Shown: one piece after another, positions 16,850 through 33,612 of the stretch
Position numbering within the stretch: the first letter of the stretch is position 1
Layout: each line of letters begins with the position of its first letter
Assembly (NCBI GenBank): GCA_021731965.1
Contig: JAKFWI010000228.1
Coordinates: 1 to 34,049, forward strand
Direction of reading: 5' to 3'
Source of the DNA: Hyphomonadaceae bacterium
Lineage (GTDB): Bacteria > Pseudomonadota > Alphaproteobacteria > Caulobacterales > Aquidulcibacteraceae
Length of the DNA stretch: 34,049 nucleotides
Position numbers and translations under genes: made by a program
The notes under the pieces: generated by a model
Told to the model about the DNA's origin: nothing
What the model saw: the letters and a program-made list of their open reading frames with translations, nothing else
The model's database searches: none

Positions 16850-19798
16850 TCATGGAGTGCGCACGGCCACATTGGTCGCGCCAACAGTAACGCCATTGGT
16901 GTTTCGTAGGCGCAAGAACACGCGGTTGTTGGCCGGATCAAATGGGATCGCCCCAGTGTTCTGCAGGAAGATGGCGTAAAGCGCGGTTTCTCCATTCGCG
17001 ACTGCGCTGCTGACATTCACGGCCGGGCCCTCGCCAGGGCGGCATTGGCCGGCGCTATCGGTGCGGCACACCAAAAGCGCGACGGGCGGCGTCAGCGGGC
17101 CGCGCTCGGCGGTGGCCACAATCGTCCCCGTCGCCCCGATATTGACGGCCGCCACCGCGAATGCGGCGCTTTCCCCCGACACACCGGGCACATTTATGAT
17201 GCCGTCATTGGTTGGTGTGGCCGCGATGGCCACCAAATCCGGTAAAGGTGTTAACTGCGCGCTCAAAATGAAGGAATTGACTCCATTCACCACTCTAGAG
17301 GCTTCTGTGGCACGGCAACTGATTGAAATGCCGATTTCCGCCTGGTTAAGTGGTGAGTCGGGCGAGATTGCAAACACAAAGTTTTGTTGTCCATTCACAG
17401 GGATCCTTCCTGAGGGCGTGTTCGCATTTCCCACAAGTTGATTGGCTGAATTGGTAGTTTGGTAGGAAAAGAACGTGCTTTGCAACACGCTTGGATCGGC
17501 TCTGGCAAACGGGATGCAACCACTTACTTCCCTGCCCGACGTGTTTAGCATGACTGCGAAGGCCGTTGCCGTTTGGCCTAGAGTAATTGCGCGGGCATAG
17601 GGCAGCACGGCCGCGACGGGCGGCGGGCTAGGCGGGCCTAAGGTTTGAGCGATTCTTAGGGTAATGTTGCCAGTCGCGCTTCCAAATCCATTGATCTGTA
17701 TCCGATAGCGCGTATCGGCAATCGCTTCGAAGGTGATCCTGCTGTCCACGTCGTCAACTTGGATATCGTCGTTTTCCGCGACCAGTTGCAAAGCACTGAC
17801 GGCATCGCCGGTATAGGCTGCGAGCACTGTATCAAAATCTGAGCCAACCGTATCGATGGTTACCGTGCCGTTACCCGGCGCAGTCCAACTCCACCAAACA
17901 CTGGCTGTGCCAGCCGCATTGTTGATGGCGCGTGGCTCGCCCGGCTCGAGGGTTGCTTGGCGGTTTGAACCTGTGGCGGAAGTATTTGTTCCAAATAGCG
18001 CCAGCGCCGCGGCGAACCCATCATTGGCGGGAGGCGGCTCGGCCCGGATGGCGTGCACGGGCACCTCGAAAGAGCGCTGCACGCCATTTTCGGTGCCGGT
18101 GATGATCACAAAACCAGTCTCACGAAAATTGGCAATGGTGTTTGGATTAACTGTGACTTGGATTGAGGTTGAGGCGGAGGGGGCAAGTGTACCACCGGTT
18201 GTGCTCAAGATTAGGATGGGAGAGGTTTCGCTCGCCGACCACGAGATCGTATTGGTCGCCGAGGTGTTTAGCAGCGTCATGGTCAAAGTGGTTGAATTGG
18301 TCTGAGTATTGCTGAACCGCGCTGTTGGGGCGTTGCTGGAGGCCAAACGCAGGCTCTGCTGGAGGAATTGCTGGGCTTGCGCCAGATCTAACCGATGGAA
18401 GGTGAAGTTCGAGCTGATATCGGTGATGCGTAACCCCGTGAAGGCCATCGCCTCGGTGATGTCGCGTATGCTGGCGCTGGGCTGAAACGAGCGCAGCAAG
18501 GCCACCGCACCCGCCACATGCGGCGTGGCCTGCGAGGTCCCGCTCATATTGGCGAATGTATTGGGGCCGACGGTCGACGAGCTAATGCTCAACCCCGGTG
18601 CCAGCACATCCACGATGGGCGAGGTATTGGTAAATGAGGCGATGCCCTCGAACTGTTGGCCGGTCGTGCTATTGGTAAAGATCCCACTGGCCCCGACGGT
18701 AATGGCGTTGCTAATGCAGCCCGGAGAGGAGACGGCGTCATTGAAGCCTTCATTGCCCGAAGCAATCACGGTGGCTACCTGGAGACTGGCCAACGTATTA
18801 ACCGCGAGCGCGCGCGTAATGGAATCGCAGACCGTTTGAAACTCCCCGCCGCCGAGACTCATATTGACGGACGCGACCGCATCACCGGCATTGACGCGAG
18901 CGATCACGTCATTCAAGGCGGCGAGACCATCGGAGGCATTAGATAAGGCTGTCGGCGCGTCGTCATCTGGATCGCGCCCGCCAAAGAAGATTTGATACGC
19001 CCAAATGTTTGCGGCCCGCGCGACGCCGCTTTGCGTGTCATCGCGCCCAGCGCCAATCCCGGCCACATGCGTGCCGTGGGTGCAGCCGGCATATTGGGTG
19101 CCGGTGCTGGTCGTAATGCCCTGGCAGGTGCGGCCGGCACCGGGCCCGATCTCAGACGGGCCGTTATTGGCGCAAAAGCTGCGGCTGGTATCGGTGCCGC
19201 TGCCAGTCGAAAAACACGCCGAGCGCGTAATGCGCGAACTCAAAAACTCATGGGTGTGATCCACGCCCGTATCGGTGGTGACGACGGCAAAGCCACTCCC
19301 TTCGATGCCTTGGTTCCACAAGGTCGGCGCGTTGATGCGCGCCGTGGAGGTCGGCAGGCTGTTGATGCGCTCGATAGTGTCGCGCTCGACCGAGAGCACC
19401 TCCGGATCGGCGCGCCAGGCGGCGATCTCATTTTCCGTGAGGTTGAGGTGCAAGATGGGCAGCTCGGAGTACAGCTTAACAAAGGTGCGGTCGCTGAGGC
19501 CGGCGCGCGCGGCCGCGGCTGCTGCAGGCGCATGTTTCGCCAAAACGCTCAGCATCTTCGCACGCATCATATCGGAGCGCCGTTTCGCACCCGCCGGATC
19601 GCCGGCCCGCAAAGCGGGGATGCCAGTGTCTTTCAGTGCCACAAGCACCGAATAACGGCCATCCTCGGCCTTGGGGGTGAGCATGATCGTCGCGGAGCGG
19701 TTTTGCTTGCCGTCGGCAAAAGCCGCGCCAGTCAGCATCGCGGTGAAAGCCAACAGCACCGAATAAAAACAAGCAGTCGAAGCGATGAGGCGGTTCAT
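16850..19798 (-). CDS. Secreted S8 family serine peptidase (subtilase) with I9-like propeptide and C-terminal PPC-like/accessory domains
   Basis: Signal peptide MNRLIASTACFYSVLLAFTAMLTGAAFA; catalytic Asp VVTTDTGVDHTHEF, His GCTHGTHVAGIGAG, Ser MSGTSQATPHVAGAVALL; ANDGFAAALAL...VWWSWTAPGNGTVTIDT...RYRIQINGFGSATGNITLRI. Confidence 0.93.
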   Translation of the reverse strand: MNRLIASTACFYSVLLAFTAMLTGAAFADGKQNRSATIMLTPKAEDGRYSVLVALKDTGIPALRAGDPAGAKRRSDMMRAKMLSVLAKHAPAAAAAARAGLSDRTFVKLYSELPILHLNLTENEIAAWRADPEVLSVERDTIERINSLPTSTARINAPTLWNQGIEGSGFAVVTTDTGVDHTHEFLSSRITRSACFSTGSGTDTSRSFCANNGPSEIGPGAGRTCQGITTSTGTQYAGCTHGTHVAGIGAGRDDTQSGVARAANIWAYQIFFGGRDPDDDAPTALSNASDGLAALNDVIARVNAGDAVASVNMSLGGGEFQTVCDSITRALAVNTLASLQVATVIASGNEGFNDAVSSPGCISNAITVGASGIFTNSTTGQQFEGIASFTNTSPIVDVLAPGLSISSSTVGPNTFANMSGTSQATPHVAGAVALLRSFQPSASIRDITEAMAFTGLRITDISSNFTFHRLDLAQAQQFLQQSLRLASSNAPTARFSNTQTNSTTLTMTLLNTSATNTISWSASETSPILILSTTGGTLAPSASTSIQVTVNPNTIANFRETGFVIITGTENGVQRSFEVPVHAIRAEPPPANDGFAAALALFGTNTSATGSNRQATLEPGEPRAINNAAGTASVWWSWTAPGNGTVTIDTVGSDFDTVLAAYTGDAVSALQLVAENDDIQVDDVDSRITFEAIADTRYRIQINGFGSATGNITLRIAQTLGPPSPPPVAAVLPYARAITLGQTATAFAVMLNTSGREVSGCIPFARADPSVLQSTFFSYQTTNSANQLVGNANTPSGRIPVNGQQNFVFAISPDSPLNQAEIGISISCRATEASRVVNGVNSFILSAQLTPLPDLVAIAATPTNDGIINVPGVSGESAAFAVAAVNIGATGTIVATAERGPLTPPVALLVCRTDSAGQCRPGEGPAVNVSSAVANGETALYAIFLQNTGAIPFDPANNRVFLRLRNTNGVTVGATNVAVRTP

Positions 19799-19954: not shown

Positions 19955-20650
19955 TCATCTTGGAGCTGCTGCAGTTTGAGCTGGCGGCGCTTGGGGAAGA
20001 CTTCCCCTGGCTGCCTGCAGGGCGGCGGCCAAAGCCTGCGCATCCGCCTGCGCTTGCCGGGTCGCGGCTGCGAGTTGCGCTTGGGCAGCGGGATCGGCCT
20101 CGACCACGCCATTGCGGATTCGCAGGCTGCCGCGTTCCGGGGTTGGCGCGGCCGGCTTGGCCGGTGCAACCTTGGCGCGCAGCAGTTTTTGAACGCGCCC
20201 ATTCGCGGTGAGCTGGGCTGTTTGCGCCGGCACTGGTGCACGCGCGGCTACAGCCGGCGGCGAACCACTGGCCGCTTGTGCGGGTGGCGGCGGGGCTGCT
20301 GGCGCGCTCGCTTGCTGTGTGCCTTTCAGCCCGCTGGCGACTTGAATACGCCCGTCAGCGGTCAAGACATGCCCCTGGCCAGCCAAAAACCGCCGCAGCA
20401 ATTGCGACAAGCTCCCTTCGAATGTGCCAGTCCAGCGCTGATTTGTTGCCACCGGCGCGCCCGTCAGGGTGCGGCCAGAGGCCAGCGCCAAAGCCGCTGC
20501 GATTTCCGGGCTATCTGCCGCCTGCGCGTCGAGCTGATAGATACCCGCGCTGCCCGGCTTTGCCAAAGCAGTCGCGGCGGCGCGCGCTTGGCTCGAGCAA
20601 AGCGTTAGCCCACACAAAGCCGTGAACACCACCAAAGCTCTTAGCACCAA
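19955..20650 (-). CDS. Secreted protein with STN-like (secretin/TonB short N-terminal) region and Ala/Pro-rich tail; unknown function
   Basis: Signal peptide ...ALCGLTLCSSQARAAA; STN-like AADSPEIAAALALASGRTLTGAPVATNQRWTGTFEGSLSQLLRRFLAGQGHVLTADGRIQVAS; low-complexity tail. Confidence 0.65.
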   Translation of the reverse strand: MVLRALVVFTALCGLTLCSSQARAAATALAKPGSAGIYQLDAQAADSPEIAAALALASGRTLTGAPVATNQRWTGTFEGSLSQLLRRFLAGQGHVLTADGRIQVASGLKGTQQASAPAAPPPPAQAASGSPPAVAARAPVPAQTAQLTANGRVQKLLRAKVAPAKPAAPTPERGSLRIRNGVVEADPAAQAQLAAATRQAQADAQALAAALQAARGSLPQAPPAQTAAAPR

Positions 20651-20661
20651 TCGCCTCCTCT

Positions 20662-20711
20662 AGAGCATTTTCAAAGAAATCGAAGTCGATTTCTGATTCG
20701 AAAAATGCTCT
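20662..20711. repeat. Intergenic palindromic repeat element A
   Basis: Outer arms AGAGCATTTT (20662-20671) / AAAATGCTCT (20702-20711) and inner arms GAAATCG (20676-20682) / CGATTTC (20687-20693). Confidence 0.75.
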
Positions 20712-20722
20712 GATTCAATATG

Positions 20723-20777
20723 CTAGAGCGCATTCGGACGGAAAACCGCAACTCCACTTTTCTTGAATGCGCTCTAG
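20723..20777. repeat. Intergenic palindromic repeat element B
   Basis: Perfect 13-bp arms CTAGAGCGCATTC (20723-20735) / GAATGCGCTCTAG (20765-20777). Confidence 0.75.
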
Positions 20778-20951
20778 CCCGCCTTATTCACGATAGCCGG
20801 CCGACAGGATGCCCATTGGCCAAAAACCTTTGCCTGCCACCTGAAACAGATACGTCGAGCCCCAAATCGACCAGCAAGCGGCTGACCCTTGTTGAAAACA
20901 GCATATCAGAAGTCGGTGTGCTCCTTCAACATTCGCGAGAGTGCTTACCGC

Positions 20952-21386
20952 TCAATTTGCGTCGGCGTTGCCCGGCGCGGTTGCCGGCGGGCTCAGCAGC
21001 AATGTGGCGTCTTCGAAACGCAGGCCAACGCCGCTCTGCGCGATGCTTTCCACGACCCAACCTCCGATTGTATCGCCCTGCTGCACGCGCGTTTCGATCC
21101 CCGATATCCGCACGAGGGCAGCAGATTTTCCCCCGGTGGTGACAATCCCCAAGACCTTGGCATCGGGCGGTGCCGGCACCGGCGGCGCTTGAGGCGGCAA
21201 AAGTGGTGGCTCGGGCACGCGGCGCGTGGGGGAAAACAGCGGCCGGTCAAGGGCGGCGCGCAAGGTCGGGGCGGCGCGCTGCGCCACCGCCACTGGAGCC
21301 ACTGGCTTTTTGTTCAGGCGATCGACGAGCAGGAGCACGAGCAGCGAACCCGCAATCGCGAACAGCCAAAGCGAGCGTGCATTCAT
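20952..21386 (-). CDS. Short T2SS GspC/GspN-like protein (TM + HR-type domain, no PDZ)
   Basis: One N-terminal TM segment, LDRPLFSPTRRVPEPP motif, KVLGIVTTGGKSAALVRISGIETRVQQGDTIGGWVVESIAQSGVGLRF HR-like region; last gene of the T2SS run, ATGA-type overlap with gspM. Confidence 0.7.
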   Translation of the reverse strand: MNARSLWLFAIAGSLLVLLLVDRLNKKPVAPVAVAQRAAPTLRAALDRPLFSPTRRVPEPPLLPPQAPPVPAPPDAKVLGIVTTGGKSAALVRISGIETRVQQGDTIGGWVVESIAQSGVGLRFEDATLLLSPPATAPGNADAN

Positions 21387-21835
21387 GGGCGGCTTTCCTT
21401 GGGCGGAGGGCGCAAACGCGCGGCAACCACCAGATCCGCCTGCAGTCGCGCGCCATCTTCGCGTGCGCGCTTGATGCTTAGGCGCTCCAATTGGAATTGG
21501 CCGGGTGCGGCTTGAACGCGCCCGATAAAGCTCAAAACAGCGGCGTTGGGCCCCTCCACCCGAATTTGCGCGCGCACCTTGCGCCCCTTGGGGGCAACCG
21601 GCAACGGATCGAGCGTGGCCAACCCACTTTGGAGGGCCAATTCGGCTCCCTGCCGCTGCAGAGCGATTGCGCCTTCGCGCGGGCCCGTGGCTTCGATATA
21701 GGCGGCGTTAGCTTGGGGCTGGCGCAAGGTTGGCTGAGCCAGGCAATAGGCTGCCAACGCGCCGAAGGTGAGCCCCAAAGCGAGGAGTCCCGCCAGCACG
21801 CCATAGGCGGTGAGGATGCCGGGTCGCTGCGTCAT
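21383..21835 (-). CDS. gspM: T2SS protein GspM
   Basis: Position and topology: single TM segment followed by a small periplasmic domain; 4-nt overlaps with both neighbours. Confidence 0.65.
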   Translation of the reverse strand: MTQRPGILTAYGVLAGLLALGLTFGALAAYCLAQPTLRQPQANAAYIEATGPREGAIALQRQGAELALQSGLATLDPLPVAPKGRKVRAQIRVEGPNAAVLSFIGRVQAAPGQFQLERLSIKRAREDGARLQADLVVAARLRPPPKESRP

Positions 21836-22674
21836 GGGTTGGCTTCACGGGTTTGCACAATCAGATGGGCCCCCGCAGGGGCTCCCTTCGGCACCGGAAA
21901 CTCCTTGAGCGTGCGAAAGCGCGCTTTGGTAAGGCCGGCGGCCATGGCTTTGTAATCAGCTGTTTCCACTTGGATTTCTAGCTTTCCCCCGGCCCATTCC
22001 AGAGCCGATAAACTGCTGGAATCGGGCAAAGCCTGTGCCAGGCGCTCAATCATTTGGGTTGGCGTGTTCGCCGAATCCCGCGCCGCCGCTCTGGATGAAA
22101 CCGCAGCGCTGAACTGACCCCAAGACGCGCCGATCAACGCACCGAGTGCGACAAAGCCAAGTGCCGCGGCTCCAGCAAAACGCAATCGCGTGCGGAAAGG
22201 CCGGCGCGGGCCGCGCAGATCATAGGCTGCGTCCTCATCCCCCTGTGCGCGCACGGCGCACAGGCGCGCACCCAGCTGGCGGCTACTTTCTTGCGCACGC
22301 AGCAGAGCATCGCGATCGCACAGCATTAGATCCAAGCGCAGCCCGCCATCCGCGTCGCGCGCTTGGCCGATCAGCGCGATCTGCTCGCGCCCGGCGGGCC
22401 ATGGCGAAAAGCCGAGCCCCTGCAATTTGGCGATCGCTTCCAGGCGGTGCCCGGCATTCGCCTGCGCCTCGGTGGTGCGGCGGATTACGCTTTCTGCCGG
22501 CAGCAGCACGATGATGCGCTCTCCCGCGCCGGGTGGCGGCGCGGATCGCCAATCCTGCCCGTCAAACACCACCGTGCGTGCTTTGCTCTCGCCGGCATGG
22601 GCCACGGCCTCATCCAGAGAATCGAGCCAGCCTTGGGCGGCCAGGAAACGCTGTTGCAGCGCCGCAGGGATCAT
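21832..22674 (-). CDS. gspL: T2SS protein GspL (short)
   Basis: 280 aa, cytoplasmic N-region, TM at FAGAAALGFVALGALIGASWG, small periplasmic region; order K-L-M. Confidence 0.65.
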   Translation of the reverse strand: MIPAALQQRFLAAQGWLDSLDEAVAHAGESKARTVVFDGQDWRSAPPPGAGERIIVLLPAESVIRRTTEAQANAGHRLEAIAKLQGLGFSPWPAGREQIALIGQARDADGGLRLDLMLCDRDALLRAQESSRQLGARLCAVRAQGDEDAAYDLRGPRRPFRTRLRFAGAAALGFVALGALIGASWGQFSAAVSSRAAARDSANTPTQMIERLAQALPDSSSLSALEWAGGKLEIQVETADYKAMAAGLTKARFRTLKEFPVPKGAPAGAHLIVQTREANP

Positions 22675-23378
22675 GGGCGGGGCCTGATTCGTGGCGGGGC
22701 AGGGCTTTGGTTCGCGGCGATCACTTGGTCACTCGAAAGCGTGCGCCGAACGACGCTGGCCAGCGCCGTATCGTCAAGGTATTCGAGCCGCACGACGATG
22801 TTGCTGCGGCCGCCTCGCATCCCTGTGCCATCGGCAAAGGCCTCCGTCTCGGGACTGAAGGTCACGTCAGCCAATTGCGCTGTTTGAGCCTCGACCTCCA
22901 ACAATCCGGCCACCGGCCCGGGGGCAGTCAGCGCTTGCGGCACCACTTGCCCGCGTGTGGTCATCCAATAGCGCGCGAGCCCACCCTGGCCGATGCGCAG
23001 CTGGCTAAACATGGCCTCGACACGCGACCAGGGGCGTCCACGAACGATCTGCAAGGAATAGGTTTGCGCCTGCGCGGCACTTTCCCCAGCCATCATCAAG
23101 GCCTTGGCCAACAAGCGCGGGTCGCTTTGATTGATATCGATGAGGCCCGTGGCGAGATAGGTCCGTGGCGGGCGCTCGGTCGGAAAAAAGGCGGCTCGGG
23201 CGGCCTGCTCAAACGCCTTTTGCTCTGCTGCGCTGCGCGCTTGGCCGGCCGCGAACCGTGCCTGCGCAAAGCTCAGGGCATCGGTGGCGCGAATACTGGC
23301 TTTGGCCGCGAGGAAGCCGGCCGCGCCAAGGATGGCGATCACCGAAAGCAGAGCAAAGGCGCGTGGCTGATTGCGCAT
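22671..23378 (-). CDS. gspK: T2SS minor pseudopilin GspK
   Basis: MRNQPRAFALLSVIAILGAAGFLAAKAS hydrophobic start lacking Glu+5, internal RTYLATGLIDINQSDPRLLAKAL; ATG at 23378 preferred to the track start. Confidence 0.75.
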   Translation of the reverse strand: MRNQPRAFALLSVIAILGAAGFLAAKASIRATDALSFAQARFAAGQARSAAEQKAFEQAARAAFFPTERPPRTYLATGLIDINQSDPRLLAKALMMAGESAAQAQTYSLQIVRGRPWSRVEAMFSQLRIGQGGLARYWMTTRGQVVPQALTAPGPVAGLLEVEAQTAQLADVTFSPETEAFADGTGMRGGRSNIVVRLEYLDDTALASVVRRTLSSDQVIAANQSPAPPRIRPRP

Positions 23379-23379
23379 G

Positions 23380-23937
23380 TTATTGCACCACGCCGCTGCG
23401 CGCTTGCGGCCACGCATAGATGGCGCTGGGCCACGGCCGACCCTCAGACTCCAGCGAAACCCGCACCAGAGTCGGGGGGGTATCGCTATTCCATGAGGTG
23501 CTCCACGTGCCGTCGCGCCCCGCATAGGCAAAGCTGGCACCCTTTAGGCTACGCAAAACGGGGGCCGTGACTTCGCCGCCGCCGAGCAATGAGCGCCGGT
23601 GAAACACGACGTCCACGCCTTTGCGGTCGCGCCCGATGGCGTCAGCGATGTCAAGCTCCACCTCGTATAGGCCCGGGGCAGCCGGATAGCCCAATTCAGC
23701 GATCATGAAACGCAAGCCGGCACCATCGCCCTCCACTGGGCCATCCGCCGCGCGCCCGATCACGGCCTGGAGCGCATCCAGCCCGTTGACAATATCGGTA
23801 TCGCGCGCGGACATGGCACTGATGCGTGTGTCAAACCGCGCCGCTGCCGGTGCGATACCAATGAGCAGGGCCAGTGCGCCCGACGCGATGGCCAAAGCGA
23901 TCAGGACTTCGACAAGCGTGAAACCGCGTGCGCTCAC
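23380..23937 (-). CDS. gspJ: T2SS minor pseudopilin GspJ
   Basis: MSARGFTLVEVLIALAIASGALALLIG type III signal sequence; order I-J-K. Confidence 0.8.
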   Translation of the reverse strand: MSARGFTLVEVLIALAIASGALALLIGIAPAAARFDTRISAMSARDTDIVNGLDALQAVIGRAADGPVEGDGAGLRFMIAELGYPAAPGLYEVELDIADAIGRDRKGVDVVFHRRSLLGGGEVTAPVLRSLKGASFAYAGRDGTWSTSWNSDTPPTLVRVSLESEGRPWPSAIYAWPQARSGVVQ

Positions 23938-24293
23938 GGTGGCACCGCCGCGGCTGGTTTCCAGAGCGGGGCCGCGCCCTCTAGCACCAGCTTTCGACCG
24001 CTCTGCGCCTGCGTTTCCACGTTCACCGAGAGGATTAACGGCGCATCGGCCGCGAACTCCGTGTGCACGCGCCAGGCCATGCCCGCCTCTTCCCCCGCAA
24101 AATCACCCGGACCCATCACTGCGGCTTGGGCCAGGCGCGCCTCGGCCAGCACGGTCAAGCGCATGATATCGCTGGCGGCGCGATTGGCGCGGGCGGCAGA
24201 ATTGGCCAGTTCGTGCAGGGTTGCAAGGCCTGCTGACGCGAGGCCAAGCGCGACCAGGGCCTCGATAAGCGTGAAGGCTGGCTTGTGCGTCAT
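23934..24293 (-). CDS. gspI: T2SS minor pseudopilin GspI
   Basis: MTHKPAFTLIEALVALGLASAGLATL; A|FTLIE processing site; ATG at 24293 overlaps the gspH stop by 4 nt. Confidence 0.8.
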   Translation of the reverse strand: MTHKPAFTLIEALVALGLASAGLATLHELANSAARANRAASDIMRLTVLAEARLAQAAVMGPGDFAGEEAGMAWRVHTEFAADAPLILSVNVETQAQSGRKLVLEGAAPLWKPAAAVPP

Positions 24294-24751
24294 GGCGCGC
24301 CGCGCAGTGACAAGCTGCAGCCACCGGTCAGCCATTGGATGGTCACCCGCGAAGACTGGCCAGGCCAGCGGATATCAACGTGCGCGCCGGTAGAGCCCCC
24401 CTGCGGGAAAAAGCGCACACCGATTTGATCGCGGGCGCTTTCGCGAGCCGCACCCGTTGCGGTGAATTGAACGCTCGCCGGTGCCTTCAGGGTAACGAGC
24501 CCGTCCGCACGAACCATCCGCGCCTCCGCATCAAATCGCAGCAAAACGGGCTGACCGGAGCGCAGCGCCAAAGCCTGCGATCGTCGGCACATTTGCTCGA
24601 CTGCTTCGGCAAAGGCGCGCCCCGATTGGCGATCGCGGGGCAAAAAAGGCGCAGCACCAGCCGCAATGATCGCCAATATCGCCATCACCACCAGCAATTC
24701 TGTGAGGGTATAACCGAAGTTAGCGGTTCGACAGATCTTTGTTCGGGCCAT
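24290..24751 (-). CDS. gspH: T2SS pseudopilin GspH
   Basis: MARTKICRTANFGYTLTELLVVMAILAIIAAGAAPFLP; G|YTLTE processing site. Confidence 0.8.
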   Translation of the reverse strand: MARTKICRTANFGYTLTELLVVMAILAIIAAGAAPFLPRDRQSGRAFAEAVEQMCRRSQALALRSGQPVLLRFDAEARMVRADGLVTLKAPASVQFTATGAARESARDQIGVRFFPQGGSTGAHVDIRWPGQSSRVTIQWLTGGCSLSLRGAP

Positions 24752-25163
24752 CGCCGCCTTTCACTCCGTCCGCGCCGAGGCTGGAGATGCGAAAGCGCCC
24801 CGTGCTAGCCTCCAGCTCAAAGAGATAGGGTTTGCCCCAGGGGTCAACCGGGATGGCGTCTCGATCCAAATACGGCCCGGCCCAGCCCGCGCTGCCGGCC
24901 GGGGCTTCCACCAAAGCCTGCAGGCCTTCCTGCTCGGTCGGTACGCGGCCCACATCATATTCAAACAGGCCTACGGCGGACGCCAGATTGCGTATTTGTG
25001 CGGCGCAGGTCTGCGCCCGCGCATCGCTCAATCGGTTGAGCAGGCGGGGCGCGAGCAGGGCTGTGAGCAGAGCCAGGATGGCCATGACCACCAGCAATTC
25101 CGTCAAGGTATAGCCCAAGCGGCGTCGTGGATTAACGTGGGGAGAGCGCGTCGAGAAAATCAC
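24720..25163 (-). CDS. gspG: T2SS major pseudopilin GspG
   Basis: GYTLTELLVVMAILALLTALLAPRL; YDVGRVPTEQEGLQALVEAP...GPYLDRDAIPVDPWGKPYLFE...ISSLGADGVKGGDGPNKDL is a canonical GspG body. Confidence 0.93.
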   Translation of the reverse strand: MIFSTRSPHVNPRRRLGYTLTELLVVMAILALLTALLAPRLLNRLSDARAQTCAAQIRNLASAVGLFEYDVGRVPTEQEGLQALVEAPAGSAGWAGPYLDRDAIPVDPWGKPYLFELEASTGRFRISSLGADGVKGGDGPNKDLSNR

Positions 25164-26353
25164 AAGGCGTCCAATGCTCCTTGGCTGGCGGCCGACAATG
25201 CACTAAGTAACGTCAGTACAATGTAGCCGACGACGAGTCCAACCAGCAAGATCGCGGCGGGTTCGGCAATCCGCACCCAGCGCTTGGCTGCATGCTCAGC
25301 TTGACCATCCAGCAGGTCAGCGAGCCGGCGCGCGGCATTGGTCATGGCACCCGCTTCGATGGCGCTCCCAAGCAATTCAATGGCGATAGGCGGCAAGAGC
25401 TGTGCGCTCGCCAAGGCAAGCGCCAGATCTTCCCCGCGGCGAACCCCCTGCAAAGCCCGGGTCATGGCCGCGCGTGCCGCGCAGTTCGCTATCGATACCG
25501 AGGCAAGCTTGACCGATTCAGAAGCCGATGCGCCCGATTCGCTGGCCAAAGCCAAGGTGCGCACGAAGCGGGCAGCCTCAACATGGCGTATCGCCGCACC
25601 GATGCCCGGCACGCGCAGCAAAAAGGCATCCACCTGCGCGCGGAGCGCAGCATTGAGCCACACCGCCACCGCGCCACTCGCCGCAAGCGCCCCGCCCGCG
25701 GCGAGGTAAGGCAGTGCCCCGCGCAGCCAGTTGGCCGCGGCAAACACCGCGGCGGCATCTTTGGGCAGTTTTGCACCCGCACCCCGCAGCGCCGATTCAA
25801 ACTGTGGCAGGATGAAAACCGCGAGGCCGCTCAATATGGCCACCGCGGCGAAGATGAGCAAAACGGGGTAGATCAAAGCGTTGATCAATTCCCCACGCAC
25901 GGCGCTGCGTCGATCCCAATCCTTCGAGAGTTCGGCCAGGCCGGTCGCCAAGGCACCGGAGGCTTCAGCCGCGCCGGCCGAGCCAGAGAACCAAGCAGGA
26001 AAAACCTCCTGATGGCGCTGCATCGCTTCGGAAAAGCTGGCCCCGCCGCGCACTTCGCTAAGCAGGTCGCCTGCCAGCTTGGCCATGCGTCGATCGCTCG
26101 CGGAGCGAGCCATGGCGTTGAGGGCGGCATCGGGGCGCATGCGTGCGCTCAACAAGATCGAGATTTCCCGGGCGAACCGCCCTGCCAGATTGCCGCCCGA
26201 TCCCGCCCGAATCGTCGGGGCAGGTGAGACGGAGATGATCGCCCCCAGCCCCGCCCGGTGATTGGCCACCACATCGTGCGCAGAGGGGGCCGTGACCCGC
26301 TGTTTGCTGGTCTTGCCCGCCCGATCGAGGATTTCGACCACGAAATCAGGCAT
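25160..26353 (-). CDS. gspF: T2SS inner-membrane platform protein GspF
   Basis: MPDFVVEILDRAGK...; FAREISILLSARMRPDAALNAMA, GGASFSEAMQRHQEVFPAWFSGSAGAAEASGAL, duplicated T2SSF domain with TM segments. ATG at 26353. Confidence 0.9.
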   Translation of the reverse strand: MPDFVVEILDRAGKTSKQRVTAPSAHDVVANHRAGLGAIISVSPAPTIRAGSGGNLAGRFAREISILLSARMRPDAALNAMARSASDRRMAKLAGDLLSEVRGGASFSEAMQRHQEVFPAWFSGSAGAAEASGALATGLAELSKDWDRRSAVRGELINALIYPVLLIFAAVAILSGLAVFILPQFESALRGAGAKLPKDAAAVFAAANWLRGALPYLAAGGALAASGAVAVWLNAALRAQVDAFLLRVPGIGAAIRHVEAARFVRTLALASESGASASESVKLASVSIANCAARAAMTRALQGVRRGEDLALALASAQLLPPIAIELLGSAIEAGAMTNAARRLADLLDGQAEHAAKRWVRIAEPAAILLVGLVVGYIVLTLLSALSAASQGALDAL

Positions 26354-27962
26354 CGACAATGCCCAATACGCGGCGGATTTCCTGCGCGCTGGTGACGCCG
26401 GCGCGTACCTGGCGGTAGGCATCATCCAACAGGCTGGGAAGGGCCTCGCAATCCGATTGGATCAAATCTTGGCTGGAAACGCCGCTGCGAATTAGGGCTG
26501 CCCGCGCTGCATCGAATGGCAAGGGCTCAAACACCCCGACGCGCCCGCGATAGCCGGTTTGTTCGCAGCTAGGGCAGCCAACCGCTTCAAAGCCCGCGCC
26601 CAAACCGGACCCCGCTTCTGCTCCGGCGTGGTGGGTGGTTTGGCGTCGGCACGTCGCGCACAGCCGGCGCACTAGCCGCTGGGCGAGCGACAGCCGCAGG
26701 GTAGAGCGCAACAAGGACGGCTCCACCCCCAGATCGAGCAAACGCGGCACGGCACCCGCCGCGTCATTGGCGTGCACCGTGGCCAACACCAGATGGCCAG
26801 TTAACGCCGCATCGACGGCGATCTGCGCGGTTTCACCATCGCGCAATTCCCCGACCACCAGGATGTCGGGATCATGGCGCAGGATGGAGCGCAGCGCCGT
26901 GGCAAAGGTCAAGCCGATCTCAGGGCGCACAGCGATTTGGTGTACGCCGTCCAACCGGTGCTCGATCGGATCCTCGATCGAGATGATCTTGCGGCTGGGG
27001 TGATTGAGCTGCGAAACCATGCCCGCCAGCGTGGTGGATTTGCCCGCACCCGTTGGGCCGGCCACGATGATCAAGCCGAAGGGCGCGCTCAGTGCGCTGT
27101 GCAACAGCGCCAGTTGCGGCTCCGAAAACCCGAGGCCAGATAGGGCAATGGTTTGGGTGCGGTCCTCCAGCAGACGGATGGAGACATTCTCGCCATGCTC
27201 GGCTGGGGCGGTGGCGACCCGAAGATCGAGCGTGCGGTCCCCGAGCGTGACGCGCGCGCGCCCGTCCTGTGGCAGCCTGCGATCTGCGATGTCCAGCCCG
27301 GCGATGATCTTCATCCGCGAGATAACAGAGCGCGCGGCGCCCGGCGAGATCGAGCCTGCCTCGTGCAGCACGCCATCAATACGGATGCGTATGCGCAAGC
27401 GATCGCGAAAGCTTTCAATGTGGAGATCAGAGGCGCGCCTGCGCGCCGCCAACGCGAGGAAATCATCCACCAGCCGCACCGTGGGCGTTTCCCCCGCCGC
27501 GCGAAGCAGGCCTTCGGCGTCATCCTCATCGGTTTCGGTTTGCGCAAAGCCGCCATCGGTATCGCGCAGCAAAGCGCGCTCGATGTCGTCGAACTGCCCA
27601 ATGACGATCCGTAAGCGCCCGCGCGCCGCGGCACGCAGCGCATCGACCGCTTCGATTTGGGTGGGATCGGCCATGGCCACGATCAGGTGATCGCCCTCAA
27701 GCGCAAGCGGTACGGCGCAAATCTTTGCCAGAAAGCGTGTTGAGAGGATCTCCCCCCAAAAGGGTGCCTCAGGGTAATGCGCCCGCTGGGCTTGGGTCAG
27801 GCCGGTGGCTCTCGACAAGGCGCTGGCAATGCTGGCGTCCGAGGCCAAGCCAAGCCGGCGAATAACCAGCGCGATCGGCTCACCGGTTTGGGTCGCCATG
27901 TCTCGAGCACGCTGCAGCTCTTGGGGCGCGATCTCGCTCAGGGCCTTGGTCCAGTCGGTCAC
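26346..27962 (-). CDS. gspE: T2SS ATPase GspE
   Basis: GPTGAGKSTTLAGM Walker A, DPDILVVGELRDGETAQIAVDAALTGHLVLATVHAN, CATC...CPSC zinc motif, TGYRGRVGVFE. Confidence 0.95.
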   Translation of the reverse strand: MTDWTKALSEIAPQELQRARDMATQTGEPIALVIRRLGLASDASIASALSRATGLTQAQRAHYPEAPFWGEILSTRFLAKICAVPLALEGDHLIVAMADPTQIEAVDALRAAARGRLRIVIGQFDDIERALLRDTDGGFAQTETDEDDAEGLLRAAGETPTVRLVDDFLALAARRRASDLHIESFRDRLRIRIRIDGVLHEAGSISPGAARSVISRMKIIAGLDIADRRLPQDGRARVTLGDRTLDLRVATAPAEHGENVSIRLLEDRTQTIALSGLGFSEPQLALLHSALSAPFGLIIVAGPTGAGKSTTLAGMVSQLNHPSRKIISIEDPIEHRLDGVHQIAVRPEIGLTFATALRSILRHDPDILVVGELRDGETAQIAVDAALTGHLVLATVHANDAAGAVPRLLDLGVEPSLLRSTLRLSLAQRLVRRLCATCRRQTTHHAGAEAGSGLGAGFEAVGCPSCEQTGYRGRVGVFEPLPFDAARAALIRSGVSSQDLIQSDCEALPSLLDDAYRQVRAGVTSAQEIRRVLGIVDA

Positions 27963-27984
27963 GATGTCACGCTTAGTCCGCGGC

Positions 27985-28989
27985 TCATGGCGCGCGATTG
28001 CGCACCAGTCCGCGCAAATGGCGATCGATCATCGAGATGTCATATTGGCTCACGGTGCTGACTAAATTGCGCCAGGTAAAGAGATTCTCGATACGCTGCG
28101 AATTGTCGATCAAAAGATCGCGCTTGATGAAGGGGTATTTGAATTGCTTGATCAGAACATCCCAGTAAAAATGCGTGGCATTGAGAGGTGTGCCATCTTT
28201 GGTGTGATGTGCAACCCGTTTCGAAATAAAAGCATTTTTTCGCGCCGACTGGTTGATTTTTTTTAGGTATGCTTCACGCGTGCGCGCGTATGAAAATACG
28301 GTTTCGACACGCAAGCCGGCGCGGATCAGTTTTTGTGAAAGCCCCACCTCGTGCTGATTAATAGCGTATTCCTTGCCGTTGCAAAAGATCATTTTGCGCC
28401 AGAATTGAGCAAACACCTGCGATCGCAGGGCGTTGGCCCGAAACAGCAGAAAATAGCTTTGCAGATGCCAGGCGCGATCCCAGGAATCGGTCAAACCCCA
28501 GACATCTGCGCTGTCATCACACCGCGCAAGGACCGGCCTTAAATCATGCAGCGGCCCGTAAACACTGTCATTGACCAGCAGCAAGCAGTCAAGATTTTGA
28601 AAGTTGGGGATTTCGGCGATGGCATCATTATAGGCACCGAAATCATAGCCGCGATTGACCCGAAACAGCGTCAGCGCCACATGCGGCGTGATGCGTGCAA
28701 TTTCAGAATGCACGAGTTTCTTGCACGAGGTCGCGAAGATGACGGCAAAGCCAGCCTCCTGCAGGCATTTCGCGTAATTGACCACATAATCATGGACTCG
28801 GCTGCGCGGATCCCAATGCACCAGTACCGCAACGCGCCTGGCCTGGTGCAGGGATTTCGCCCCTGGCACGCGCTGCCGGATTCGCGGCATCCAACCAATC
28901 AAGCAACCCAACATCAAGCTGCTGACAAGCGATGCCAAAGCCCGCGCCCTTCGCAGCGCGGCGAGGATGGGTCTCGTCTTTGGGATCAT
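27985..28989 (-). CDS. Rhamnan synthesis protein F (RgpF)-family protein
   Basis: RVAVLVHWDPRSRVHDYVVNYAKCLQEAGFAVIFATS, NRGYDFGAYNDAI, LLLVNDSVYGPL, VWGLTDSWDRAWHLQSYFLLFRANAL: RgpF hallmark motifs. Embedded between gspO-side genes and gspE. Confidence 0.85.
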   Translation of the reverse strand: MIPKTRPILAALRRARALASLVSSLMLGCLIGWMPRIRQRVPGAKSLHQARRVAVLVHWDPRSRVHDYVVNYAKCLQEAGFAVIFATSCKKLVHSEIARITPHVALTLFRVNRGYDFGAYNDAIAEIPNFQNLDCLLLVNDSVYGPLHDLRPVLARCDDSADVWGLTDSWDRAWHLQSYFLLFRANALRSQVFAQFWRKMIFCNGKEYAINQHEVGLSQKLIRAGLRVETVFSYARTREAYLKKINQSARKNAFISKRVAHHTKDGTPLNATHFYWDVLIKQFKYPFIKRDLLIDNSQRIENLFTWRNLVSTVSQYDISMIDRHLRGLVRNRAP

Positions 28990-29942
28990 GGTGAGATCCG
29001 TCCGGTTTCGGCGCGCTCATCGCGCGAAAACCTCTCAAGATCGGTTTGCGGCAACGGGCCCTGAGCGCGCACGGGCGGGCGGGCAAAGGCGGCGCGCGCC
29101 ACCAAATCCTTGCCGTCCCTCGCCACCTCGAGCCATGGAAAATCTTGGCGTGCCAAACTGGCTTCTAGGCCCGCGCGTGAATACAGCACCGGGCACAAAT
29201 ACGGTGCGGCGAGTGCCAGTGCCCCGTCCCCAGTTCGCTGACCCTGCTGGATCTGCTCACAATCACGGCAGGTGATCAGCAGGCAGGACCACGCCCCCAT
29301 GCAGGATTTCATCAGGGCCAACAGCATATCAGGGCGATCAAATTGCTCGATCAAGCGAAAGGCAGCCACAACGTCAAAGGGAAAGTCACCCGGACGCTGG
29401 GCCTCGATCAGCGCGTTTTGCTCCGCGCGGGACGCCGCCGGCACAAAGTTACCCGGATGGGCAGCGCTAGCGCGCCATCCCAGCACATCTCTTGCGAAAG
29501 CCAGCGTCAGTCCGGGGGGGCGTCCGAACTCACAATAAGATTGCACCTCGGTGGGCGGGAATTGCCAGAGCAGGTCGGCGCATTGGCTGAAATCGGCATC
29601 CGCCTGTTGGGCGGGCGGCATGATTTGCGGGCCGGTAGAGCCGCCGGCAGGATCAGCCCGCAGGGAACGGCATTTTGGGCAGCATTCGTAAGAGCCGCGC
29701 TCTTCGCCATTGGCCACCACGCTCACGAAATGCACCATGGCGTCAGAGCCGAGGCAGGCTGGGCAGGGGAGAGACGGCGAAGTTTTCACCGCTTCCCCGG
29801 ACCCGCTCCAGTCAAGCTGGATTCGATCGAGGCTCAGAGCTGGGGTCATCCGCGCGGGCTGCGTCGTCGATCTGCCAAGTCCGAGCGCGGCCTGCAAGTC
29901 CCCGATCAGGATGGGGTCCTTCGGAAGAGCGCCGCGTTCCAT
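28986..29942 (-). CDS. Cys4 zinc-ribbon / degenerate class I SAM methyltransferase-like protein
   Basis: CPACLGSD...YECCPKCRSLRADPAGG; SYCEFGRPPGLTLAFARDVLGW (motif I-like, degenerate); FDVVAAFRLIEQFDRPDMLLALMKSCMG; 4-nt overlap with the RgpF-like gene. Confidence 0.6.
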   Translation of the reverse strand: MERGALPKDPILIGDLQAALGLGRSTTQPARMTPALSLDRIQLDWSGSGEAVKTSPSLPCPACLGSDAMVHFVSVVANGEERGSYECCPKCRSLRADPAGGSTGPQIMPPAQQADADFSQCADLLWQFPPTEVQSYCEFGRPPGLTLAFARDVLGWRASAAHPGNFVPAASRAEQNALIEAQRPGDFPFDVVAAFRLIEQFDRPDMLLALMKSCMGAWSCLLITCRDCEQIQQGQRTGDGALALAAPYLCPVLYSRAGLEASLARQDFPWLEVARDGKDLVARAAFARPPVRAQGPLPQTDLERFSRDERAETGRISP

Positions 29943-29975
29943 GGCTTTAGCCTCAGTCTAGATAGGGCCGTTAAT

Positions 29976-30614
29976 CTACACGTAGATTTCCGAGAATAAA
30001 TCAATTGCTGCAGCGAGCGCCATCAGGGTTATGAGCGGCAATTTGAACGCAAAGCCCTGAAATAGCAATCGGTTGGCCGCAATCCCAAGCGCGGCGCAGA
30101 TGGCACAGGTCCAAGCGATGTCAGGAAACCCGAGCCAGCAGGCGAGGGCGGCCAGGATTGGCGGATCGGCTTCGCCCATCCCGTCATGGCCCCGCAAGCG
30201 CCGAAATCCCTGGAGGAGAGCTGTGGATAGACCCAGAGTAGCAAGGCCAGCGAAGGCAAAAGCCGCCGCACCTTGCGCTCCTATCTGAATGTAAGCCTTT
30301 GCCAATCCGCCGATTGCAAGCCATGCCGCGGGCCAAAGGGGCGCGCTGCGCGTGCGCAGATCGCTCCAGGCCATGACGCTGAGCAGCCACAGGCATGCGC
30401 CGTGCAGGAGCCGTGGCGCGCCCGGCGGCGCACTGGCGACGGCCAGGGCCGCGCAGGCCAATCCCAAACCGGCACCCCAATATTCTTGTCGCCGGCACCT
30501 TTTCACGGCCTCACCCAAGTCCGGCAAGGGCAAAGCTGTGGCATGGCGCGATAGATACGCCCCGAGCGGCGCTCCAGCGAGCAGCACGAACAGGCCAACC
30601 GGATCCAGGGTCAT
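29976..30614 (-). CDS. A24-type prepilin peptidase, peptidase domain only (GspO/PilD-like)
   Basis: 212 aa multi-TM protein; AWSDLRTRSAPLWPAAWL (first Asp) and GHDGMGEADPPILAALACWLGF (second Asp, GxGD-like); no CxxC motif or N-methyltransferase region. Confidence 0.78.
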   Translation of the reverse strand: MTLDPVGLFVLLAGAPLGAYLSRHATALPLPDLGEAVKRCRRQEYWGAGLGLACAALAVASAPPGAPRLLHGACLWLLSVMAWSDLRTRSAPLWPAAWLAIGGLAKAYIQIGAQGAAAFAFAGLATLGLSTALLQGFRRLRGHDGMGEADPPILAALACWLGFPDIAWTCAICAALGIAANRLLFQGFAFKLPLITLMALAAAIDLFSEIYV

Positions 30615-30663
30615 GTCAACGCACGATCACCCCAGACCGCTGCCCGCGCATCCGGCTGGGGCA

Positions 30664-32931
30664 TTATCTGCGTTTGGCAAGCGAGATTGGCTGCTCATTA
30701 CGGGCGCGGAGTTCATCTGGGTCTATGGCCGGCGGATCAGTGCTTTTTTCGGGTGAGAAGCTGCCGGCTTTGCGCAAAGCCGCGGATAGCGCGCCCATGC
30801 GCGCCGCCAATTCCTCCGCCGCGTGGGCGGCCGCTTCAGGCGAGGTGATCACCCGCGGGGAGAGGAAAACCAGCAATTCCGTGCGCCGCGCCGTGCGCTC
30901 CGTGCGGCCGAACAAGGCCCCGATGACCGGGATGCGCGTCAAGCCCGGAAAGCCAGTTCGCCCCGATTGCTGGCTGTCGTCGATCAGCCCGCCAAGTACG
31001 ATGGTGTGGCCTGATTGCACCGCCACGCTGGACGAAAATCGTCGCTGCGAAATGGTTGGCGTCAGGGTGGTGGCTTGCCCGGCGACACGAACCACGCTTG
31101 AAACTTCCTGCTCAACCGTCATGGTGACGAGGCCATTCGCCCCGATCCGTGGCGCGACCCGCAAGATCACGCCGGTATCGCGAAACTCGATGTTGGAGAC
31201 CAAGGGCGCGGTGCCGTTTTCGGTTCCCTGTGCCTGGCGGGTCACGATGGGAACTTGATCACCAACTTGCAAGGTTGCCGATTGATTGTCCAAAACGGCA
31301 ATCGAGGGGCTGGATACGACTTGCACATTGGTGATGGCGTCAAGCGCATCGAGCACGACGCGGGCCGTATCCTGATTGGCCAGCAGGAAATTGAACCCGG
31401 GAAATAAAGCTTGCGGGATCAGGCTGGAACCGAGCGTGAGGCCTCCCGAGGAGCTGTTGCCATCGCCGCCGCCGGGCCCCTTGGTATCAAAGAAGTATTG
31501 GACACCAAACCGCAGATCGTCATTGAGCGTGACTTCGGCGATGGTCACATCAATGAGCACCTGCTCGGGCAGGGTGTCGATCGCCGCCAAAGCGCGGCTC
31601 ACAAAGGTGTGCCCGTCCGCGCGCGCCATCACCAATAGGGAATTGTTGGAGCCATCGGCGACAATGCGAGCCAAAGGCGCGCCATCGATCGCCCCGACCG
31701 AAACCGGACCGCCGGCACCGGTCTGGCCCGAGGAGAAAGGCGCGAGATCAGCGACGCGTGCTGGCCCGCTATTGGCGGTGCCAGCCTGGGAAGCCTGACC
31801 GGTGGAGGCGGTCGCCTGCGCCAAATCCGGTGCCACGGCACCCGCGTCACTTTGTCCGCCGCTTTGCCCCAACAACCCGCCGAGCAATTGGGCGGCATCG
31901 CGTGCCGCGATATTCACGACCGGGTAGGCCCGCAGCGATAGGCTGGCACCGCTGGCGCGATCCAGTTTTTCGATCAGCGCCTCTATTTTCGTCAGGGTCG
32001 ACCGGTTGGGTGCCGCGACCAGCACCGAATTCAGCCGCTCAAGCGGGGAAATTCGGATGCCGCTCCCGCCGCCGGGCGCGCTGCCGGTCCCGGCGTCTTC
32101 GGTGACATTCATCGCCACCCGCAATTCGCGGACGATGTCGCGTGGAGCCGCGAATTGTATGGGGTAGATGGCCAGCGCTTCCCCCCCCAGGCCGCTATCT
32201 TGCAGCGCTTCGATGGCCGAGGCGATCGATTGACGCTCCGCGGAGGTGCCAACGGCGAGTAGGAGATTAAGCCGCGGTGCAGAGCGCAACAAATTGGGGC
32301 GCGAAGCCACCCCTTCGAGCAGGCCGCGCACCTCGTCGCCGTTCAGTCCCCGCATGGGGAAAACGGAGATGCCATAGCCAGCCTGCCCGGCGGGCCGCAC
32401 AGGCAGGCCCTGTCCCAAGGCGTTGTCGATGGGGGTTACAATATAGCGGCCCTGTTGCTCGATCAGGGCACAATTATTGAGGCTCAACGCCGATTCAAAC
32501 GCGTGCAGCAGCTGATCGCGCGAGAGCTCCCCGTTGGTGGACAATGTCACCCGGCCCTGGGCGCGCGCATCGATCGAGTAGGGCAAGCCAAGCAAATCGC
32601 CCAACACCAGCTTGGCGGCTTCGGCCAAATCGGCATCGGCAAGCTCAACCGAGCCTCCGCTTCCCAGCAAAACCTGTGGCGCTTTGACCGCTTCTTCCGG
32701 CTCAACGACAATCTGTTTTTCCTGCGGCGCAGCCTGCGTTTCAGGGAAAACCGCCTGCGACTGCCCAGGGGCTTTGCTCGGCTCGGCGGATGTCAGCTGC
32801 GTCTGGGTGGGATCGGGCAGGCCTTCGAATATACGATCGGAAGGGGGTGGGTGCGGCGTCGCGCAGCCCGATAGCATCGCCGCCGCCACGAGGCCGCGAG
32901 TTAACCCAGTCGAATCGACGCGAGCTGCCAT
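30664..32931 (-). CDS. gspD: T2SS secretin GspD, probable lipoprotein
   Basis: N-domains, secretin core VLIDVTIAEVTLNDDLRFGVQYFF...VVSSPSIAVLDNQSATLQVGDQVPIVT...GLTRIPVIGALFGRTERTARRTELLVFLSPRVI. ATG at 32931 gives GLVAAAMLSGC lipobox. Confidence 0.93.
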   Translation of the reverse strand: MAARVDSTGLTRGLVAAAMLSGCATPHPPPSDRIFEGLPDPTQTQLTSAEPSKAPGQSQAVFPETQAAPQEKQIVVEPEEAVKAPQVLLGSGGSVELADADLAEAAKLVLGDLLGLPYSIDARAQGRVTLSTNGELSRDQLLHAFESALSLNNCALIEQQGRYIVTPIDNALGQGLPVRPAGQAGYGISVFPMRGLNGDEVRGLLEGVASRPNLLRSAPRLNLLLAVGTSAERQSIASAIEALQDSGLGGEALAIYPIQFAAPRDIVRELRVAMNVTEDAGTGSAPGGGSGIRISPLERLNSVLVAAPNRSTLTKIEALIEKLDRASGASLSLRAYPVVNIAARDAAQLLGGLLGQSGGQSDAGAVAPDLAQATASTGQASQAGTANSGPARVADLAPFSSGQTGAGGPVSVGAIDGAPLARIVADGSNNSLLVMARADGHTFVSRALAAIDTLPEQVLIDVTIAEVTLNDDLRFGVQYFFDTKGPGGGDGNSSSGGLTLGSSLIPQALFPGFNFLLANQDTARVVLDALDAITNVQVVSSPSIAVLDNQSATLQVGDQVPIVTRQAQGTENGTAPLVSNIEFRDTGVILRVAPRIGANGLVTMTVEQEVSSVVRVAGQATTLTPTISQRRFSSSVAVQSGHTIVLGGLIDDSQQSGRTGFPGLTRIPVIGALFGRTERTARRTELLVFLSPRVITSPEAAAHAAEELAARMGALSAALRKAGSFSPEKSTDPPAIDPDELRARNEQPISLAKRR

Positions 32932-33111: not shown

Positions 33112-33612
33112 TCACTTCGTCAGGCGATAATCCTCAATCGCGATTCCTGCTGGCAAAAGCGGCATCTCAGCGAGGCTGCGTAAATGCCCTTCAAGCCGTA
33201 TGCCGCCGGCGGTGGCCAAAATAGCGAGATCCCGGCGCGTTAGTTCCGTGCTCCACCAGGCTGTTAAGAGACTAACCCCATCTCCGCACAGGCTCATGTC
33301 CATCGCCGATGTCATGTTTTCGGCGATATTGCGTTGCGCCGCAGCGAGCATACTGGCTTTAGCAATTGTGAAAGTCATCGACGCATCGAACGGGCCGGCG
33401 AATACAGTCAAACTGGTTGGCGCGTGATTGGTTAATTGGGCGCTGCGGGCGCTTGGCAAAACGGCCATCGCCAGATCCGCGCCATAGGCCGCGCTTGGCA
33501 AAGCCCCCATGCACGCAGCCCCAGCCAATGCCGCCGATAGCGCTTGGTTGTATACACATGAACGCAAAGCGGCGCGAAGCCAAGGGGCGTGGGGCATGGT
33601 GATTCCCAACAA
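33112..33612 (-). CDS. Hypothetical secreted protein upstream of the T2SS operon
   Basis: 166 aa with hydrophobic N-terminal segment ending AAYGADLAM; no family recognised; start 33612 or 33597. Confidence 0.5.
   Translation of the reverse strand: MLGITMPHAPWLRAALRSCVYNQALSAALAGAACMGALPSAAYGADLAMAVLPSARSAQLTNHAPTSLTVFAGPFDASMTFTIAKASMLAAAQRNIAENMTSAMDMSLCGDGVSLLTAWWSTELTRRDLAILATAGGIRLEGHLRSLAEMPLLPAGIAIEDYRLTK

Follow-up and report, generated by a model that had tools for sequence, protein, structure and literature searches.

The 34,049-nt stretch of Hyphomonadaceae DNA analyzed here (contig JAKFWI010000228.1 of assembly GCA_021731965.1, hereafter the window) carries on its minus strand, from 32931 to 20952, a type II secretion system (T2SS) operon into which two genes for putative sugar enzymes are inserted. 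Open reading frames (ORFs) together with Pfam and NCBIfam matches give the order gspD, A24 prepilin peptidase (gspO), a methyltransferase-like gene (MT), an RgpF-like glycosyltransferase gene (RgpF), gspE-F-G-H-I-J-K-L-M and a GspC-like gene. We judge the chances to be even that this T2SS is specialized for exported proteins sharing a domain of ~255 amino acids and is coupled to enzymes for building or capping a glycan of the cell surface. That the domain is a mark of cargo for this T2SS is the most likely reading of its co-occurrence with and adjacency to the operon; for the sugar enzymes, the most likely role is synthesis or capping of the surface glycan that holds this cargo, a view prompted by enzyme class and by analogy to the type IX secretion system (T9SS) and anionic lipopolysaccharide (A-LPS). 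If true, this would be an undescribed route of protein export, perhaps with retention on a sugar-coated cell surface; no description of the combination of MT-RgpF, T2SS and domain was found in the literature searched.

A shared domain co-occurs with the MT-RgpF T2SS

Beside the operon, and absent from the account of a first-pass annotation of this DNA, lie a gene for a secretin/TonB short N-terminal (STN)-like protein and a gene for an S8 subtilase that is a candidate cargo (16850..19798, minus strand; PF00082). The ~255 C-terminal residues of the subtilase (residues 724-982, positions 16850-17629) are common to it and to M12B proteins encoded beside the operon in relatives. This domain has two parts and four invariant cysteines and ends in GATSVAVRT when C-terminal; Pfam, NCBIfam and PDB searches with it returned nothing beyond a weak DUF11-like similarity, and a plasmid search for it found none. 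Its hosts are S8, M12B (reprolysin-like) and M23 peptidases, a di-haem peroxidase, a Vgb-like propeller, an esterase and DUF1800 proteins, with signal-peptide-like N-termini as judged by eye. T2SS cargo folds in the periplasm, and the four invariant cysteines would be fitting for folding there before export. Two copies of the domain were found in the window genome, the second in a protein encoded on a different contig of this bin (C200), and there are 12 each in G043 and G047, 8 in G375 and 3 in G230.

Of 398 genomes from the order, 16 carry the domain, and these are exactly the 16 that have RgpF in a T2SS operon; three genomes with RgpF outside a T2SS (G007, G310 and G391) have no domain. The naive chance of such a match is 7e-29, a figure that kinship makes meaningless as a probability. 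The genome sets are samples rather than full censuses, and the window assembly is fragmented. Among 385 genomes of the class, the domain was found only in the window genome and in two genomes of another order, G641 and G720, in which T2SS genes next to gspO, two RgpF genes, an MT gene and an STN-like gene lie in one locus, with domain proteins encoded within that same locus in G720. The GspE of G641 and G720 falls outside the Caulobacterales clade, and forced grouping was rejected (approximately unbiased test, p 0.0007). Since this GspE is of a different lineage, the accessory set appears to have been joined to two T2SS lineages, which we regard as the strongest evidence here for a putative working link.

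Conservation of the MT-RgpF insertion

Only three of 60 relatives, all from one other family, have a gspE ~50% identical to that of the window over its full length, and MT and RgpF lie directly upstream of gspE in all three. The first-pass annotation had proposed a gene-neighborhood check across genomes and had allowed that the insertion might be unique to this strain, with disrupted T2SS genes. Instead, searches anchored on RgpF recovered the MT-RgpF insertion in 24 other non-redundant loci, and the T2SS reading frames of the window operon are intact. RgpF lies directly before gspE in 24 of 24 loci, MT precedes RgpF in every locus whose contig reaches that far, and the junctions are mostly -4 to +6 nt. 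Where the contig reaches, the common arrangement is gspD-gspO-(zero to two genes)-MT-RgpF-gspE-F and onward, one locus (G375) being without gspO between gspD and MT. Overlapping frames hide some genes from ORF calling across loci (the gspO of L076, L077 and L099, for example), and a gene missing from a locus is not thereby proven absent.

Because the same order recurs in 24 other loci, the arrangement is not due to chance. Among its named carriers are Hyphobacterium indicum, Oceanicaulis and many Robiginitomaculum assemblies, to which one genome of another family is added; the insertion is thus shared by three families of the order. Together with the presence of the same enzymes alongside a second T2SS lineage, this conservation suggests that the two extra genes are not passengers. 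Between gspO and MT, Robiginitomaculum has an ABC-2 transporter pair or, in one case, a sulfotransferase gene, and in about ten loci a gene of the PMT_2 type (protein mannosyltransferase-like) comes immediately before gspD.

The GspE proteins of the MT-RgpF-linked T2SSs group in a single clade (support 100/99.7) that excludes the order's ordinary T2SSs, with the window GspE as sister to that of G375; a tree of RgpF recovers the main family's subgroups without resolving the placement of the window sequence. Outside this clade falls a second, ordinary T2SS of the window genome (G000; contig C30, locus L043, 5718-15702), in which a GspC with a PDZ domain is followed by D, E, F and so on and the T2SSK and GspL domains are standard. 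The nearest T2SSs elsewhere in the class run (O)-E-F-G-H-I-J-K-L-M-C-D where readable, as in xps of Xanthomonas, often with gspO immediately ahead of gspE and with a GspC that has no PDZ domain encoded after gspM; neither MT nor RgpF was found in the loci inspected. Since these systems often run O-E-...-M-C-D, what is new in gene order is that gspD has moved to the front and that MT-RgpF has been inserted. The earlier description of the operon as departing from textbook order thus stands for these two features, whereas a peptidase ahead of gspE and a GspC late in the operon are usual in Xps-like T2SSs of Alphaproteobacteria. Another T2SS with gspD before gspE, the two being separated by a 210-aa gene, occurs in the family of the window (L172, genome G016); no MT or RgpF was found there.

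Organization of the operon

All genes of the operon are on the minus strand. The first, gspD (30664..32931), encodes a GspD-type secretin with N0 and secretin domains (TIGR02517, 376.6 bits versus an equivalog cutoff of 351; PF00263, PF03958 and PF21305). Its ORF is open to 33048, and from the start at 32931 the protein has a lipobox, MLSG/C; LSGC is found by strict pattern in 20 of 21 relatives with a complete N-terminus. The lipobox therefore makes 32931 a sensible end point for the operon, as placed by the first-pass annotation. A 166-aa ORF upstream of gspD (33112-33612) is without a family match and may be unrelated.

Genes with weak or no family matches were checked with profiles built from relatives only, the window being left out (E-values of these relatives-only profiles are marked RP). 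The second gene encodes a 212-aa A24 prepilin peptidase (29976..30614; PF01478, 32.8 bits versus a cutoff of 26.5; RP 3.5e-12), and is followed by the two inserted genes, MT (28986..29942; 318 aa with a Cys4 and a degenerate methyltransferase domain; RP 4e-22) and an intact RgpF (27985..28989; 334 aa; PF05045, 92 bits versus a gathering score of 25; RP 1e-106). The ATPase gene gspE (26346..27962; PF00437, E=5e-116), gspF (25160..26353; PF00482; start at 26353 most likely from a start codon check, ORF open to 26425) and the major pseudopilin gene gspG (24720..25163; PF08334, E=5e-30) precede a full set of minor pseudopilin genes: gspH (24290..24751; N_methyl; best NCBIfam match XpsH, below its cutoff; RP 8e-37), gspI (23934..24293; start at 24293 most likely; RP 2e-20), gspJ (23380..23937; RP 1.4e-23) and gspK (22671..23378; start at 23378 most likely), the last recognized by position and by a weak but significant relatives-only match (RP 3e-7). 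The platform proteins GspL (21832..22674; weak PilN match; RP 5e-7), GspM (21383..21835; RP 7e-6) and the 144-aa GspC/XpsC-like protein (20952..21386; PilP family below cutoff; RP 1.5e-18) were recognized by the relatives-only profiles and are without a Pfam match above cutoff; a Pfam scan of the GspC-like protein found no PDZ domain.

The first-pass view that the operon and its two extra genes make up a single compact unit is supported, as the order, the overlaps and gaps of at most 49 nt were confirmed from the sequence. Gaps separate D/O (49 nt, the largest), O/MT (33 nt), RgpF/E (22 nt) and J/K (1 nt), and the remaining junctions overlap: MT/RgpF, F/G, H/I, I/J, K/L, L/M and M/C by 4 nt each, E/F by 8 nt and G/H by 32 nt. 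This spacing suggests that the operon is transcribed as one unit. Matches to promoter-like and terminator-like patterns in the operon region were not in excess over shuffled sequences, and a candidate internal terminator at the peptidase/MT junction was rejected, folding being no better than in shuffles (z 0.0). Two strong stem-loops 3' of gspC (20662-20778, minus strand; fold z -5.8; perfect arms of 14 and 10 nt) likely mark where the operon ends or is attenuated; the second of them had no counterpart in the other loci fetched. Both stem-loops, which lie between gspC and the STN-like gene, are long and perfect and consist of repeat-like sequence. Beyond them, next on the same strand, come the genes for the STN-like protein (19955..20650; 231 aa, TTG start, apparent signal peptide) and the subtilase. 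The STN-like family also adjoins this T2SS in f4, G375 and G641/G720, its match to STN being weak (E 0.013, in two of eight family members).

The RgpF, MT and peptidase proteins

The AlphaFold (AF2) model of RgpF (predicted local distance difference test score, pLDDT, 87.6) resembles enzymes of the GT-A fold at modest template modeling (TM) scores, and catalytic-type motifs are invariant across 34 RgpF sequences. The MT proteins of relatives (705-871 aa) have an invariant Cys4, an intact S-adenosylmethionine (SAM) motif and an extra helical C-terminal half, and a full-length model of one of them is closest to the sugar C-methyltransferases TcaB9, KijD1 and MtmC. The window MT is without this C-terminal half and has EFGRPPG in place of the glycine-rich class I SAM motif, which reads E/DVGxGxG in 22 of 22 relatives. 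Because the SAM motif is lost, this protein, labeled Cys4/MT-like in the first-pass annotation, is probably not an active methyltransferase here. With the sequence of the window MT itself as query, no relatives were found in the genome contigs, and PDB sequence searches with RgpF, MT, the STN-like protein and the shared domain returned nothing relevant. A 524-aa protein encoded next to the subtilase (15193-16767, plus strand) has two methyltransferase domains, of which the second follows a Cys4 and has kept its SAM motif intact. This protein might substitute for the degenerate MT.

The window peptidase keeps both aspartate columns (D85 and D150, invariant); an apparent loss of one aspartate was dropped as a candidate, since the alignment pairs GEAD with GLGD. 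The N-terminal A24_N Cys4 domain (PF06750), present in three relatives scanned, is missing from it. Because no other A24 peptidase was found in the assembly, both T2SSs of the genome may depend on this single shortened enzyme. With MT degenerate, the peptidase shortened and only two domain proteins found, the window genome looks like the carrier of a reduced version of the system.

Proposed mechanism and alternative explanations

Cargo recognition by T2SSs is a long-standing open question, with no shared signal known for most substrates. A recognizable cargo domain that is present in several proteins per genome and co-occurs with one T2SS lineage would make both recognition and surface retention directly testable, and the domain is carried, in 12 copies, by the cultured species Hyphobacterium indicum. 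In the mechanism that we propose, domain-bearing enzymes (the subtilase, reprolysin-like and M23 peptidases and others) would cross the inner membrane by means of their apparent signal peptides and would be exported by the T2SS through the lipoprotein secretin GspD. RgpF, together with the sugar-methyltransferase-like MT, would add or cap sugars on a surface glycan, as family and fold suggest for the enzyme classes; in Robiginitomaculum this glycan could leave via the operon's own ABC-2 transporter. The domain would then bind the glycan and keep the protein on the surface, and the STN-like protein may, speculatively, act as an adaptor at the secretin or platform. We give slightly less than even weight to the proposal that T2SS, glycosyltransferase-methyltransferase pair and STN-like adaptor form a dedicated surface-display unit, which would export domain proteins and retain them on a matching glycan and would have come together at least twice, with different T2SS lineages. 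Such a unit would be a case, beyond the T9SS of Bacteroidetes, of glycan enzymes linked to a secretion machine.

Several observations weigh against this interpretation. Because most of the 16 genomes with the domain belong to one family, the window genome and G375 adding two more, the co-occurrence represents far fewer than 16 independent events. The domain is near the N-terminus or internal in 7 of 19 inspected proteins, and the idea of a strict, simple C-terminal signal was dropped. Other Alphaproteobacteria also have MT-RgpF pairs in loci where T2SS genes are absent, so the pair was probably derived from a polysaccharide locus. Finally, with the SAM motif of the window MT lost, methylation cannot be required in the window genome unless it is carried out by another enzyme.

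An alternative is that RgpF and MT covalently glycosylate the cargo domain or a T2SS component rather than build a glycan that binds cargo. Strict conservation with the T2SS is limited to two sugar enzymes, whereas a whole polysaccharide would take more, and the PMT_2-type genes upstream of gspD would suit protein glycosylation; however, PMT_2 is absent from the window neighborhood and from other loci, and the predicted cytoplasmic location of RgpF and the sugar methyltransferase, set against the folding of T2SS cargo in the periplasm, would call for a flippase and a ligase; an ABC transporter is present in Robiginitomaculum only. We consider covalent modification unlikely. Similarly improbable is an explanation by shared regulation, under which secretion and glycan genes are co-expressed for one growth state and the domain marks cargo while the glycan enzymes have no direct role. 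The occurrence of MT-RgpF in non-T2SS sugar loci and the degeneration of the window MT beside an intact T2SS would fit such an arrangement, but co-regulation alone hardly explains why the same enzymes, cargo domain and STN-like protein accompany two T2SS lineages.

There is a small chance that the window contig belongs to another bacterium and was mis-binned, given that the assembly is fragmented (269 contigs) and that the sampled family is otherwise without the system. Nevertheless, estimated contamination is 0.4%, the second domain protein lies on contig C200 of the same bin, and the argument from the conserved system is independent of the bin. A passenger insertion, in which MT-RgpF landed by chance or transfer and persists without function, would fit the degenerate window MT and the finding of the system in only one of the sampled members of the family, but is very unlikely given an intact RgpF with catalytic-type motifs invariant in 34 sequences and adjacent to gspE in every locus.

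Comparison with known systems

The Xanthomonas xps genes run xpsE-F-G-H-I-J-K-L-M-C-D, with gspO outside the cluster (PMC11981180). The window operon resembles this Xps T2SS in its E-to-M block followed by C, in its PDZ-less GspC and in a GspH closest to the XpsH model; it differs in having gspD at the front, and thus not the E-...-C-D order, in having the peptidase inside the operon and in having MT-RgpF between peptidase and gspE. As for the inserted genes, the window RgpF belongs by score to the RgpF family (PF05045, above the Pfam cutoff) and the MT of relatives is closest in fold to TcaB9 and KijD1. Unlike those proteins, they are encoded inside a T2SS operon, the window MT is without the SAM motif, and the MT of relatives has the extra helical C-terminal half.

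In the type IX secretion of Porphyromonas, cargo with a C-terminal domain (CTD) is anchored to A-LPS (PMC4560394, PMC8545088). The likeness, which concerns only how such a system might work, is that one machine serves many cargos with a common domain and has surface glycan genes linked to it; here, however, the machine is a T2SS rather than Por proteins, the ~255-aa domain is not always C-terminal and no sortase was identified. The GlyGly-CTERM/rhombosortase and MYXO-CTERM/myxosortase systems of surface sorting are linked to T2SSs (PMC6219818, PMC11980579). The short tripartite tail of those systems (motif, membrane segment and basic end) is replaced here by a large folded domain with four invariant cysteines, beside which no sortase was found, and the window subtilase ends in GATNVAVRTP without a hydrophobic segment. 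What the two arrangements would have in common is the many-to-one pairing of a protein feature with T2SS export and surface display.

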